Shown in pieces: positions 2,732 to 6,310 of a stretch of 20,307 nt of DNA (position 1 is its first letter; every line of letters starts with the position of its first letter). The translations under genes were made by a program, and so were the position numbers. This DNA comes from a virus. The notes below the pieces were generated by a model. It did no database searches. It saw only the letters and a list, made by a program, of their open reading frames with translations, and had not been told where the DNA came from. The stretch is from the IMG/VR virus record IMGVR_UViG_3300034073_002418, positions 1-20,307 of that record, one strand, 5' to 3'.

Positions 2732-2839
2732 ATGGCTCAAGCAACCAAACAACAGCAGCAGGAATGCTGCTGGAAGACAACAGGGAACTCTTCGGAAGTT
2801 CCGAATAGTTCAAAGCAACCTTCCGGAATTTCCGGATAG
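2732..2839 (+). CDS. Possible small glutamine- and serine-rich protein (35 aa)
   Basis: The ATG at 2732 follows purine-rich GGAGGGGG and AGGGGG stretches at usable Shine-Dalgarno spacing. The 35 codons (starting MAQATKQQQQECCW) contain a Gln run and end inside the pair of palindromes just before the next gene. The overlap with operator-like DNA argues either for an early leader peptide or against coding. No family is recognised. Confidence 0.3.
   Translation: MAQATKQQQQECCWKTTGNSSEVPNSSKQPSGISG
2791..2836. promoter_or_regulatory. Twin palindromic operator-like sites
   Basis: TTCGGAA-G-TTCCGAA (2791-2805) and TCCGGAA-T-TTCCGGA (2822-2836) are perfect 7-base inverted repeats around one central base. 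They share the core CGGAA-N-TTCCG. Their centres (2798 and 2829) are 31 bases apart, about three helical turns, which puts them on the same DNA face. Both are followed by the same word, ATAGTTCAA, so the whole unit is an imperfect tandem repeat. They end 26 bases before the start codon at 2863, where a repressor of the replication operon could act. Confidence 0.55.
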
Positions 2840-2862
2840 TTCAAGAGGCAGAAGGAGATCAC

Positions 2863-3144
2863 ATGAGACCAATCGCAAGGTTTATTTTGGTACAAAACTG
2901 GGGTCACGAGATTCTGATCAACATCTCGCGCATCGAATCAATTCGAGCGACTGCAGACCCAAACGTTTGCCAGATCCATATGATTGGCGACAAGGAGGAC
3001 GAGTGCTTTGACGTGAAGCACACCCTACAAGACCTCGTTTTCGTTCTCGACGAGGCTGCCGACGTGCACATTGCCGGCGTGAGAGTGAAGCCAGAGGGGC
3101 TGACGTCGCCGGAAATCGAATCCATGACACACAAGAAAAACTGA
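2863..3144 (+). CDS. Hypothetical small protein, FlbD-like pattern (93 aa), paralogue of the next gene
   Basis: A strong ribosome site (AAGGAG, about 2849-2855) precedes the ATG. The N-terminal part (RFILVQNWGHEILINISRIESI) matches the pattern of the next protein (RFIRM...GHSLLINTDHIALI), so the two are diverged tandem paralogues. The alternating short beta strands, a set-value-then-Ile-Asn strand, and a final helix-like segment recall small FlbD-type proteins, but this is pattern similarity only. It is the first gene after the twin palindromes and so probably the first gene of the replication operon. The C-terminal 25 residues are polar and likely flexible. Confidence 0.75.
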   Translation: MRPIARFILVQNWGHEILINISRIESIRATADPNVCQIHMIGDKEDECFDVKHTLQDLVFVLDEAADVHIAGVRVKPEGLTSPEIESMTHKKN

Positions 3145-3174
3145 GTCTCACACACACGACACAAAGGAAACCAC

Positions 3175-3387
3175 ATGACCAGATTCATCAGGATGAAGAC
3201 GACTGCAGGCCACAGCCTGCTAATCAACACCGACCACATCGCATTGATAACGAGCGACCCGGAGGAGACCTACAGCGTGATTCAGCTGTGTAACGCGATT
3301 GATCACGACGATTACCTGATCGTTCAGGCAACCGTGGACGAGATTCAGGCGATGATTGAGGCACCAGAAGCAAAGGAAACCACATGA
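3175..3387 (+). CDS. Hypothetical small protein, FlbD-like pattern (70 aa), paralogue of the previous gene
   Basis: The start has AAAGGAAACCAC directly upstream, a good ribosome site. The product consists mainly of predicted beta strands (RFIRMK, HSLLINTDHIALIT, TYSVIQLC, YLIVQATV) and ends in an acidic helix (DEIQAMIEAPEAKE). It is shorter than its upstream paralogue, lacking that protein's C-terminal tail. Its stop overlaps the DUF3102 gene start (ATGA). A small early regulatory or DNA-mimicking role would fit its size, acidity and position, but nothing in the sequence proves it. Confidence 0.75.
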   Translation: MTRFIRMKTTAGHSLLINTDHIALITSDPEETYSVIQLCNAIDHDDYLIVQATVDEIQAMIEAPEAKETT

Positions 3388-4517
3388 ACGAAATTATTCT
3401 CACCGACCTACCCACCGAAACACTCGCCGAGATGGCCGCCGAAAAGGCCGCACTTGTCGAACAGCATGGACGGAAGACTGTCCAAGCAGCAATTGACTGC
3501 GGACGCTACCTGACGGAAATCAAAGGCCGTCTCGCGTATGGTGAATGGCTGCCGTGGCTGGAGGAGAACTGGCAGTACAGTCGAATGTGGGCATCGCAGT
3601 TCATGAAGTTGGCAAATGTAAACGGCACTTTACATTTGGAAAACGCCGGCAGTATTGGCGAGGCCCTGCGAATGATCGGCGAAGCCGAAGAAGCCGCCGG
3701 CACCAAACGCACCCGAAAGCCCGCCGAACCAGCCCCCGAAGTGATCGACAACCGCCCGGAATCGCGCACAATCGCGCAGCCCAAACCCACGCCAGACGTG
3801 CAAAAACACGAGCAATCAGAGCCGCAGCCAGCCAATCAATCGCGCGGAATCGCGCACGACCTGCCACCCGATGAGCCCGCGTCATTACCGCGGACGAACA
3901 CTCGCCACACCCCGGCAACCCGTCAGCAGATCGACCATGGGCCAGATTCCGCACCGGCGCAGGCTGTCGAGGACGCCTACGGAATGCCACTACTAGAGGT
4001 GGTGATCGCCCAGCATACGACTGCCGAAGTCGTGGCCGCACTTGTGGCCGGCATGGAAGGCACGCAGGCAAAGCGCGTCGCTGCAATCTTGCGCGAAGCC
4101 GCGGACAAACTCGATCCGCAGCCCGTCGTGATCCATCACCAGGAGCCAGCACCGAAGCCCGCAAAGCCCGGCAAACATCCTTCAGCCGATCAGTTGATGA
4201 ATGTGGCCCGCACCTATGAGACAGCGTGGAGCGGCCAGCTGATGACGCAGGTCAGTAAGTGGGCACAGTACAAGCAGTCTTTGACAGGCAACGCCAAAGT
4301 CCGCTCTCTCGCATCATGGGAAACAATGCTGACCCGCATTGACAACGTCCAGAAAATGCGAGGAGCCGGCACAGTCTGTGAGATGATCAACAAAGCCATT
4401 GCCAACGGTTGGCAAGGCTGGGAACACGATTCAGGCAGCAACGGCAAGCCGACCGTTGCATCTACACGCATCGATTCAGGAGAAGACTACAGTGATCTCG
4501 AATACCGCACGGCATGA
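3384..4517 (+). CDS. DUF3102 protein with replication-protein-like C-terminus (377 aa)
   Basis: Residues about 10-80 match the DUF3102 pattern: a long helix, then GRYLTEIKGRLAYGEWLPWLEENWQ, then a SRMWASQFMKLA helix. This domain is common in phage and plasmid proteins. A proline-rich, probably disordered linker spans about 105-190. The C-terminal part ends with W...R...KMRGAGTVCEMINKAIANGWQGWE. NGWQGWE (341-347) resembles the ends of phage replisome organisers. The next gene is a DnaC-like loader that overlaps it by 26 bases. By analogy with lambda O/P, this protein may be the origin-binding factor. The gene also carries an AT-rich dyad and iterons (3613-3855). ParB-like partitioning is an alternative role. 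Confidence 0.85.
   Translation: MNEIILTDLPTETLAEMAAEKAALVEQHGRKTVQAAIDCGRYLTEIKGRLAYGEWLPWLEENWQYSRMWASQFMKLANVNGTLHLENAGSIGEALRMIGEAEEAAGTKRTRKPAEPAPEVIDNRPESRTIAQPKPTPDVQKHEQSEPQPANQSRGIAHDLPPDEPASLPRTNTRHTPATRQQIDHGPDSAPAQAVEDAYGMPLLEVVIAQHTTAEVVAALVAGMEGTQAKRVAAILREAADKLDPQPVVIHHQEPAPKPAKPGKHPSADQLMNVARTYETAWSGQLMTQVSKWAQYKQSLTGNAKVRSLASWETMLTRIDNVQKMRGAGTVCEMINKAIANGWQGWEHDSGSNGKPTVASTRIDSGEDYSDLEYRTA
3613..3855. other. Candidate phage replication origin: AT-rich dyad plus four iterons inside the DUF3102 gene
   Basis: A perfect 10-base inverted repeat, CAAATGTAAA / TTTACATTTG (3613-3622, 3629-3638; 6-base loop), stands out as AT-rich in GC-rich surroundings. Downstream, AATCGCGC occurs four times as two tandem pairs with exact 10-base period: 3760 and 3770, then 3838 and 3848. 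Within each pair the copies are read in different codon frames, so conservation is at the DNA rather than the protein level. Iterons plus an AT-rich element inside a replication-initiator gene next to a helicase-loader gene is the lambda ori arrangement. Function is inferred. Confidence 0.5.
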
Positions 4518-5157
4518 AGAACTCGGGCTGCCTGACGACGCAGACGCACGGCGCCTCTGTGTTCGTGAGGCCGTCCTTCGAATCAAAGACAAAATTGCAA
4601 ACCGCACGGACGAGCCGGAGCCAGAGGAGTCCCCGCGGCTGCCGGAAGGCTACGAGGATTCAACGTGGGAAGCCGTGGATGACGCCGATAAAATTAAGCA
4701 GTTTGTTCGCGATGTCTGCGCCCGCAAGTCATGGCCGCTGTACATTCATGGACGCCCAGGTGTCGGAAAAACATCGGTGGCTGCACTGATCTACTCCGCA
4801 TGGACAATGCAGCCGCTGTGGCTACGGGCTGACACAACCCTGCGGGAAATCGCATTCTCAAACAACGAGGACGTTCGGGCGTGGCGGAAACGCATCAAGC
4901 AGGCGCCCTGTGTTTTCCTCGACGATCTCGGAGTGCAGGCGCCTAATCCGCAGATGCTGGTGGCCTTGTTCGACCTGCTCGAAGACCGCAAGAATCGGCC
5001 GCTGATTATTACCGGCAACCACAACCTTCAGTCACTGCTGCAAATCTACGAGCCGCGAATCGTCTCGCGTTTGTCAGCCGGCGCTACACTGTGGCTCGAC
5101 GGCAACGACCAGCGAAAAGGACAGGGCGACCGACTTAGAATCGGAGCAAGCAAATGA
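4492..5157 (+). CDS. DnaC-like AAA+ ATPase, helicase loader (221 aa)
   Basis: The protein carries Walker A GRPGVGKT at 87-94 and Walker B CVFLDDLG with D144-D145. A TGN sensor-1 segment is at 174-176 and SRL at 192-194, the usual order for DnaC/IstB-type ATPases. These load the replicative DnaB helicase onto melted origin DNA. The length (221 aa) is close to that of phage loaders. GTG at 4492 is preferred as start because CAGGAGA (about 4478-4484) lies at good spacing. A TTG about 90 bases upstream would overlap the DUF3102 gene heavily. The acidic N-terminus (about 1-75) would contact helicase or initiator. It overlaps genes on both sides, within a replication operon. Confidence 0.92.
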   Translation: MISNTARHEELGLPDDADARRLCVREAVLRIKDKIANRTDEPEPEESPRLPEGYEDSTWEAVDDADKIKQFVRDVCARKSWPLYIHGRPGVGKTSVAALIYSAWTMQPLWLRADTTLREIAFSNNEDVRAWRKRIKQAPCVFLDDLGVQAPNPQMLVALFDLLEDRKNRPLIITGNHNLQSLLQIYEPRIVSRLSAGATLWLDGNDQRKGQGDRLRIGASK

Positions 5158-5507
5158 ACCCCCAACACATCGACCGAATCACCATCAACGGACTCGGGCT
5201 AAAGCGCTGGCGAGAACACGGCAGCCCCTGCTGGTGGCACCAAATCATTCAGCCCGACGGCACCGAATCCCGCGTCGAAATGCTTCGTAAATCCGGCACC
5301 GATACTCTTGTCATTCACGGCGACAAGATCCGGCGCGCCTTGGCAATCTGTGGTGAAGGCGTGCGGCTGGTCTATGCTATCGGACTGCCGGAACCAGTCT
5401 ATCAGCAGGTAATCACAATCAACCGCGACGAAGTCGTCAGCGGTGCACGGGTGGCGTTTTTCTCAATGGACCTTGAGGTAATTCTACAACGGGAGGCAAA
5501 CAGATGA
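5154..5507 (+). CDS. Hypothetical protein (117 aa)
   Basis: The start overlaps the loader stop and its stop overlaps thyX, both as ATGA, so it belongs to the replication operon. The sequence looks like an all-beta small domain: several short strands, a GSPCWWHQIIQPDG turn with paired Trp, and a C-terminal strand and helix (VAFFSMDLEVILQREANR). There is no recognised motif, signal or membrane segment. Position between the helicase loader and ThyX suggests a DNA replication or nucleotide role, but this is context only. Confidence 0.75.
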   Translation: MNPQHIDRITINGLGLKRWREHGSPCWWHQIIQPDGTESRVEMLRKSGTDTLVIHGDKIRRALAICGEGVRLVYAIGLPEPVYQQVITINRDEVVSGARVAFFSMDLEVILQREANR

Positions 5508-6310
5508 TTGGCGACACAGTGAAGGTTGGGCCGGATGGATTTGTGCGGCTCAGGGACGTGATGGGCACAGACGCAACCATCTGTGACGCGGCTCGCGTAT
5601 CGTACGACCAGCAGGGCAAGCAGGGCGACGACAGGAAGCTGATCCGATACCTGATGCGGCACAAGCACACGAGCCCGTTTGAACAGGCGGAGGTGCAGTT
5701 CGTTGTTCGCGTCCCAATGGATATCTGGCGGCAGTGGGTGAGGCACAGGACGGCAAGTATTAATGAGTATTCGACAAGATACCGCGAGGCGATTGAAGAT
5801 GTTGCGATTCCTGCAGTGAATCAGTGGCGGAAGCAATCAAAAACAAACAAGCAGGGCAGCGAGGGAATGTTGTCGGAGTGTGATGGCGAAGAATGCCGAG
5901 TGGAGTTTCGGCTTGCCGCAAAAGCGTGTCGCGATGCTTATGCAAATATGATCGACTGCGGAGTCGCCCGCGAACAAGCCCGCTCAGTACTCCAGTTGGC
6001 CACCTACACCGAAGCCTTCTGGAAAATCGACCTGCACAACCTCCTGCACTTTATCGCACTCCGCATTGACAAGCACGCACAGCAGGAGATCCGCGAGTAC
6101 GCGCAGGCAATCCTAGACCTCATCGCCCCGCTGTTTCCGCTGACGATCGAGGCGTTTTTTGACTACCGCGTCAACGCGATGACGCTGTCGGATTTGGACA
6201 TCGCAGCAATCGCGCGGCAGGACTGGGCCGGAGAGACGATTGAAGATGCTCGCGAGCGTCGCGAGTATTTGGATAAGTTGGTAATCTTGGAACTTGGAGG
6301 TGTGAAATGA
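5504..6310 (+). CDS. thyX: Flavin-dependent thymidylate synthase ThyX (268 aa)
   Basis: ThyX methylates dUMP to dTMP using methylenetetrahydrofolate, FAD and NADPH. The diagnostic RHR-x7-S motif is present: R80-H81-R82, then S90 within RHRTASINEYSTRY. It is preceded by the HKHTSPFEQ segment (53-61) that binds dUMP and flavin. C-terminal helices (about 160-215) match the family, including ArgSer-containing EQARSVLQL. The length is typical (200-270 residues). The start overlaps the previous stop. Phages carry thyX to raise dTMP supply during replication; the surrounding operon fits that. No dUTPase or ribonucleotide reductase is visible in the window. Confidence 0.96.
   Translation: MIGDTVKVGPDGFVRLRDVMGTDATICDAARVSYDQQGKQGDDRKLIRYLMRHKHTSPFEQAEVQFVVRVPMDIWRQWVRHRTASINEYSTRYREAIEDVAIPAVNQWRKQSKTNKQGSEGMLSECDGEECRVEFRLAAKACRDAYANMIDCGVAREQARSVLQLATYTEAFWKIDLHNLLHFIALRIDKHAQQEIREYAQAILDLIAPLFPLTIEAFFDYRVNAMTLSDLDIAAIARQDWAGETIEDARERREYLDKLVILELGGVK

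Follow-up and report, generated by a model that had tools for sequence, protein, structure and literature searches.

Covariation of a recognition helix and an intragenic palindrome points to a self-encoded DNA target of DUF3102 proteins

A helix and a palindrome that change together across more than 100 phages, plasmids and prophages point to the target of DUF3102 proteins and to a putative protein-DNA recognition code. The proteins of this family very probably bind a palindrome located in their own gene, and a domain of unknown function thus gains a specific predicted biochemical activity, with sequence alone naming the target of well over 100 members. The case analyzed here is a 26-bp palindrome at positions 3613 to 3638 of the window (the whole stretch of viral DNA, 20,307 nucleotides); we put the probability that it is the cognate site of the DUF3102 protein encoded around it at roughly 0.85.

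The DUF3102 protein and its predicted recognition helix

The DUF3102 gene of the window (3384 to 4517, plus strand) encodes a protein of 377 amino acids with an N-terminal DNA-binding domain, a Pro-rich linker and a small C-terminal helical domain. Residues 15 to 85 match the Pfam model DUF3102 (PF11300) with an E value of 1.6e-13 and 51.5 bits against a curated cut-off of 24.4; the protein is thus a member of this family, which had no assigned function. An AlphaFold2 model of residues 1 to 114 (mean pLDDT 90) has helices at residues 11 to 49, 55 to 62, 67 to 83 and 91 to 109 and contains a predicted helix-turn-helix, the second helix of which comprises residues 67 to 83. A fold search with this domain model against the PDB gave no significant match (best E value 2.9), and a sequence search against the PDB found no solved relative of the domain.

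The family motif is numbered S1-E2-R3-T4-A5-Q6-N7-F8-M9, and in the AlphaFold2 model the predicted recognition helix begins at code residue 2. In the window protein, residue 66 is S1, and residues 67, 68, 71 and 72 occupy code positions 2, 3, 6 and 7. The codons for the start of the recognition helix (residues 66 to 74, SRMWASQFM) lie at 3579 to 3605 on the plus strand, as judged from the helix at 67 to 83 in the model and from covariation in the family.

The palindrome in the window and its nearest relatives

The arms of the palindrome, CAAATGTAAA (3613 to 3622) and TTTACATTTG (3629 to 3638), are complementary at 10 of 10 positions and are separated by a 6-nt spacer. Taken as a 26-mer, CAAATGTAAACGGCACTTTACATTTG, the palindrome matches in 11 of 13 pairs, and the DUF3102 protein itself is predicted to bind it. 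It begins with CAAAT, ends with ATTTG and lies 3' of the recognition-helix codons. It is present in a single copy within the window, and few 40-mers between 2700 and 5200 are as AT-rich as this stretch (0.65 versus a window mean of 0.43); the AT-rich inverted repeat with perfect 10-base arms reported in the preliminary description is thus borne out.

The ends of the palindrome are kept among relatives and its core varies. In the nearest relatives found, L003 (62% identity) and L004 (39%), the palindromes CAAATTATGCGC-GT-GCGCATAATTTG and CAAATTGCTACC-GC-GGTAGCAATTTG, respectively, occupy the same codons and have the same ends as that of the window, each with another core. The DUF3102 domains of the window and L003 are 77-79% identical, and yet the helix start (QYSRM in the window versus RLHQA in L003) and the palindrome core have both been rewritten.

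Further copies of the palindrome were sought in the window and its relatives and were mostly not found; clear ones were detected in L093 and L156. The DUF3102 gene of L093 (about 4124 to 4350) carries three copies at offsets 0, +75 (3 mismatches) and +102 (1 mismatch), so that this gene holds an array in place of the usual single site, and L156 has extra copies in two adjacent paralogs.

The palindrome across the DUF3102 family

We gathered 163-164 distinct DUF3102 genes from contigs of viruses and genomes, from records of phages and plasmids, and from whole genomes. Because the GEWLPWL motif and Pfam served as seeds for the collection, outlying branches of the family are under-represented, and the collections may also omit very near relatives of the window. 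We scanned for near-palindromes of 24-27 bp just 3' of the helix codons, scoring matches minus mismatches with a cut-off of at least 9 (the score of the window) and without using the CAAAT ends. This score was reached by 112 of 163 distinct DUF3102 genes, versus 0.86% of 1630 synonymous-codon shuffles and 0.83% of 839 other ORFs from the same loci. When each gene was compared with 200 of its own shuffles, 56 of 92, the window's gene among them, outscored all of these.

About 15-30% of DUF3102 members have no palindrome at the expected place, and several of these have one just outside the gene; L015, L182 and L193 have perfect or near-perfect palindromes away from the usual place. In some members no site was detected, as in the DUF3102 relative of phage LE1 (L218/L219): this gene, Orf4, is flanked by ParA-like Orf3 and Orf5 and has no detectable intragenic palindrome, and L219 has a separate annotated ParB-like gene near Orf4, at 2791-3639. 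Several gut Firmicutes genomes (L132-L159, L190-L209) contain around ten DUF3102 paralogs scattered over the chromosome, mostly with differing helices and matching palindromes.

A code linking helix residues to palindrome bases

The association between helix and palindrome was analyzed in the 113 genes that remained after redundancy in helix and core was removed; entry required recognizable CAAAT palindrome ends, and core bases and helix played no part in the choice. Among genes chosen in this way, positions 2 to 5 (AAAT) are nearly fixed, partly because of the choice itself, and bases 6-13 are variable. Four residue-base combinations stand out: residue 2 with base 6 (z 21), residue 3 with base 8 (z 19), residue 6 with base 7 (z 13) and residue 7 with base 10 (z 23.5). 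Secondary associations link residue 3 with base 9 (z 14) and residue 6 with base 6 (z 13), and most other combinations are far weaker. Arginine goes with guanine, as R3-G8 (65 of 66), R6-G7 (12.5 of 15) and R7-C10 (47.5 of 50, the guanine being on the opposite strand); the other prominent pairings are N7-A10 (34/34), Q2-T6 (17/17) and E2-C6 (36/40). Pairing of Arg with guanine, Asn with adenine, Gln with an A-T pair and Glu with cytosine are chemically familiar preferences. In the core of the window, R2-G6 and Q7-A10 fit the code, S6 with T7 is unusual, and M3 is too rare to judge; in L003, Q2 goes with T6, as the code predicts.

The helix codons and the palindrome are separate DNA, so neither encodes the other. 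They lie physically close, and part of the raw correlation between helix and core is therefore shared descent. Two tests lessen this effect but leave some of it. First, a code trained on 40 Firmicutes genes was applied to 23 genes from Pseudomonadota, Verrucomicrobiota and Leptospira, phylum labels that are compatible with horizontal transfer. It gave 113 of 124 bases right (91%), including 32/32 for residue 6-base 7 and 40/40 for residue 7-base 10; with the helices of the test genes shuffled, 53±6% of bases were right, with a maximum of 73% in 1000 trials. Second, among 50 non-overlapping pairs of near neighbors, co-change of helix residue and base was strongest for 7-10 (p 7e-7), 2-6 (p 1.4e-5), 6-7 (p 4e-4) and both 3-8 and 3-9 (p 5e-4).

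The same helix-core pair can also be found in distant backgrounds. For example, SERTAR is paired with CAAATCGGCA both in L105, from Verrucomicrobia, and in gut Firmicutes, whereas L005, L016 and a Leptospira plasmid share the pair SRFTA and CAAATGTTG. The Leptospira plasmid lcp1, which was outside the training set, has no intragenic site and one anchored palindrome, CAAATGGGAA, 3 bp past the DUF3102 stop codon (L220, 1369-1393, between DUF3102 and rep); its bases agree with the code for R2, R3, S6 and T7. Taking these comparisons together, we hold with high confidence that the palindrome is conserved at the DNA level and specifically coupled to its own recognition helix.

Covariation of the two arms, and the ability of the sense strand to form a hairpin, are also what would be expected of an RNA hairpin with a regulatory role in the mRNA. 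However, G-U-compatible mismatches are not clearly favored over A-C: among mismatched pairs G-T was counted 36 times and A-C 28 times, no marked G-T excess, and selection therefore looks like selection on double-stranded DNA. Moreover, the total length of the palindrome is nearly fixed at 25-26, loopless perfect palindromes are common, and a hairpin would leave the covariation with the helix unexplained. The hairpin, already largely refuted by the code, is rejected on the mismatch types together with the code, and we consider it extremely improbable.

Recognition by a DUF3102 protein would then proceed as follows. A homodimer would place the helix-turn-helix recognition helix of each subunit in one half-site, 5'-CAAAT-n6-n7-n8-n9-n10, where conserved residues would read CAAAT and helix residues 2, 6, 3 and 7 would read bases 6, 7, 8 and 10, respectively. 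The code predicts that replacing Q6 by R in a member with the SERTAQ helix would shift the preference from CAAATCCG to CAAATCGG and that a change of R7 to N would shift base 10 from C to A. In the window, the helix codons and the palindrome span 60 nt, and in the family the start of the site lies about 34-110 nt past the beginning of the helix codons; being so close, reader and site would be inherited together and could change specificity jointly.

Tandem pairs and the question of an origin

The preliminary description proposed a lambda-like replication origin inside the DUF3102 gene, with four copies of AATCGCGC as iterons. The copies are present as claimed, at 3760, 3770, 3838 and 3848, in the tandem pairs AATCGCGC-AC-AATCGCGC (3760 to 3777) and AATCGCGC-GG-AATCGCGC (3838 to 3855). 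Counted on both strands of the 20.3-kb window, AATCGCGC occurs 6 times versus 1.9 expected, and two instances of the tandem-pair pattern were found in the window, versus none in 100 shuffles. When codons were reshuffled synonymously, keeping the protein, 0/2000 trials reached four copies and 0/2000 reached two pairs. Both the inverted repeat and the AATCGCGC copies are thus real at the DNA level. The two copies within a pair are read in different frames (ESR then TIA; QSR then GIA), as the preliminary description claimed. The two pairs, however, share one frame, in which their hexapeptides are related, (E/Q)SR(T/G)IA; the likeness of one pair to the other may therefore stem from a duplication of the peptide.

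Neither AATCGCGC in the gene nor equivalent tandem repeats were found in L003 and L004. The pairs are thus additional and have so far been seen in the phage of the window alone, and this comparison does not support their reading as origin iterons. Since the palindrome is conserved while AATCGCGC is absent from both relatives, the key element is the palindrome rather than the iterons. GC skew has no minimum at 3613-3638, although it is not decisive, because the record is a 20-kb linear fragment. An origin built on the AATCGCGC iterons, with the palindrome secondary, would fit the non-random occurrence of the pairs at the DNA level and the adjacent helicase loader; given the absence of such repeats from L003 and L004 and the lack of a skew minimum, we regard it as quite unlikely. 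The proposal of a lambda-like origin is thus supported in part. What stands of it is a predicted protein-binding DNA element within coding sequence, kept at the DNA level, whose binding protein is almost surely the product of the same gene, as is the case for lambda O and its origin.

The genes next to this element bear on its role. The C-terminal domain of the DUF3102 protein (4170 to 4514, plus strand) is shared with L004 (50% identity) and has a weak likeness to lambda-O-type initiators: the profile phrog_678, "replication initiation O-like", matches the C-terminus with E values of 0.099 in the window and 0.02 in L004. The suggested resemblance to replisome organisers thus finds a match, but a weak one (E 0.02-0.1). 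The contig of L004 was the only one that turned up among viral relatives of this domain, and a model of the domain (pLDDT 76) gave no significant fold match, the top viral match being a DUF6291 protein (E 0.15). The 3' end of the DUF3102 gene overlaps with a gene for a DnaC-like AAA+ helicase loader (4492 to 5157, plus strand, with a GTG start at 4492 as the probable start codon; phrog_50, E 1.3e-21), and the claimed order of a DUF3102 gene upstream of a DnaC-like loader is therefore correct in both assignments. A pattern search for viral relatives of this loader found none. Both the window and L004 have a DUF3102 protein with an extra C-terminal domain followed by a DnaC-like loader, and in L003 the downstream genes include a possible DnaD-like protein (E 0.022) and, two genes on, a DnaB-like helicase.

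Given the DnaC-like loader after the gene, an origin at the DUF3102 gene of this phage is plausible. As lambda O does, the bound DUF3102 protein would recruit the loader to the site or its vicinity and would thereby nucleate replication. With the extra C-terminal domain and the loader downstream, this is the likeliest role in the phage of the window, although we propose it tentatively and at slightly less than even odds, and it makes the DUF3102 protein a candidate origin-binding protein. The self-binding arrangement alone does not mean an origin, because it is also found behind ParA and in a Mu-like transposable phage.

Other elements lie in the same part of the window. The early gene cluster also contains a ThyX-type thymidylate synthase gene (5504-6310). 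Two 15-bp palindromes, TTCGGAAGTTCCGAA and TCCGGAATTTCCGGA (2791-2805 and 2822-2836), lie within a 28-nt direct repeat with 31-bp spacing, just upstream of a small gene at 2863, and look like an operator pair for the early operon. A 26-nt direct repeat (3153-3178 and 3362-3387), which ends in AAAGGAAACCACATGA and lies at the starts of two consecutive genes, is read as a reused ribosome-binding region.

Genomic neighbors and alternative roles

Of 188 loci, about 25 encode a ParA-type ATPase directly upstream of DUF3102, in the position of ParB (Pfam assigns 18 of 97 upstream genes to this type), and Leptospira plasmids have the gene order parA-DUF3102-rep. The lcp1 gene published as parB (LIL30002; PMC4338851) corresponds to DUF3102 by its position next to parA. 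These observations suggest that DUF3102 could be a non-ParB centromere-binding protein and the palindrome a parS-like partition site on which ParA acts. Paralogs that reside together mostly have different helices and sites (in one genome, 10 of 11), as incompatibility would require; this divergence within a genome fits a need for mutual orthogonality. However, ParA is absent from the window and from the neighborhood of most phage members, and no ParA-type motif was found near the DUF3102 gene in the window, L003 or L004. Furthermore, Pfam finds no ParB domain in the window protein, and in the Mu-like transposable phage Ps59 DUF3102 precedes transposase genes. For the palindrome of the window, a partition site is therefore possible, if on the unlikely side. 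For the ParA-linked members, on the other hand, we lean toward a DUF3102 module that serves partition together with ParA, possibly as a non-ParB centromere-binding family in plasmids and integrated elements.

Two further observations concern the neighbors. PcfJ-like genes (PF14284) often adjoin DUF3102 in Firmicutes loci, for example in L121; they made up 16 of the 97 genes scanned upstream and 10 of the 81 scanned downstream. A TubZ partition system upstream of DUF3102 was considered and rejected: the tubulin/FtsZ Pfam match traces to L144/L151, where the ORF looks like an ordinary FtsZ.

The usual presence of one site, in or beside the DUF3102 gene, would also suit an autoregulatory operator, where the protein, bound within its own coding sequence, would hold down its transcription through a roadblock or a loop, with no role in replication or partition. 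KfrA, an alpha-helical plasmid DNA-binding protein that is laid out similarly, regulates its own expression (PMC7783346). Operators usually overlap promoters, however, whereas the palindrome lies about 230 nt into the gene, and autoregulation alone would leave the ParA and helicase-loader neighbors unexplained. We consider autoregulation as the only role unlikely; it may accompany a role in replication or partition.

Partition and autoregulation are thus the main rivals to replication in the phage of the window, and the variety of neighbors suggests a shared DNA-addressing module with varying effectors. We favor, with some reserve, the view that DUF3102 represents a widespread class of self-addressed DNA-binding modules, in which helix and palindrome are co-encoded within about 60-140 nt and which would be plugged into replication, partition or other DNA transactions by C-terminal parts and neighbors that vary. 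Co-resident copies would diversify for orthogonality, and the family would be a natural library of matched helix-site pairs. Because reader and target share one gene, most newly sequenced members are themselves matched pairs. Such pairs offer an unusually clean system for studying the evolution of protein-DNA specificity and for finding orthogonal DNA-binding domains.

Comparison with known systems

In the full text of open-licence papers, we found no earlier report on the function of DUF3102, on such an arrangement or on covariation of helix and site; judged by title and abstract, none of the papers naming DUF3102 is on its function.

In phage lambda, the helicase-loader gene adjoins gene O. 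The O gene contains the DNA-binding sites of its own product (PMC4488673). The DUF3102 gene of the window is similar in that it contains the predicted site of its own product and has a loader gene adjacent. However, lambda has four 19-bp iterons and an AT-rich segment, whereas DUF3102 has one conserved 26-bp palindrome and a DNA-binding domain of another family; the conserved site is this single palindrome rather than a conserved iteron array.

The ParABS systems share with DUF3102 a helix-turn-helix protein and a palindromic site. In B. subtilis, a parS site lies within the parB (spo0J) gene (PMC4442127), and the specificity of ParB and Noc is set by few residues (PMC7383237); DUF3102 likewise appears to have an intragenic site and few specificity residues, and a subset has a ParA neighbor. 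In contrast, DUF3102 sites have other bases and vary between members, and most members are without ParA. The N-terminal CTPase domain of ParB was not found in the window protein, for which DUF3102 is the sole Pfam match. On the features tested, the DUF3102 system is a member of neither the lambda O nor the ParB family.

The sites bound by KfrA of RA3 are direct repeats that overlap its promoter (PMC7783346), unlike the intragenic palindrome of DUF3102, and no family match between the two was found. They are nonetheless alike in layout, an N-terminal helix-turn-helix followed in many DUF3102 members by a long coiled-coil-like region, and in a link to plasmid maintenance (PMC7783346).
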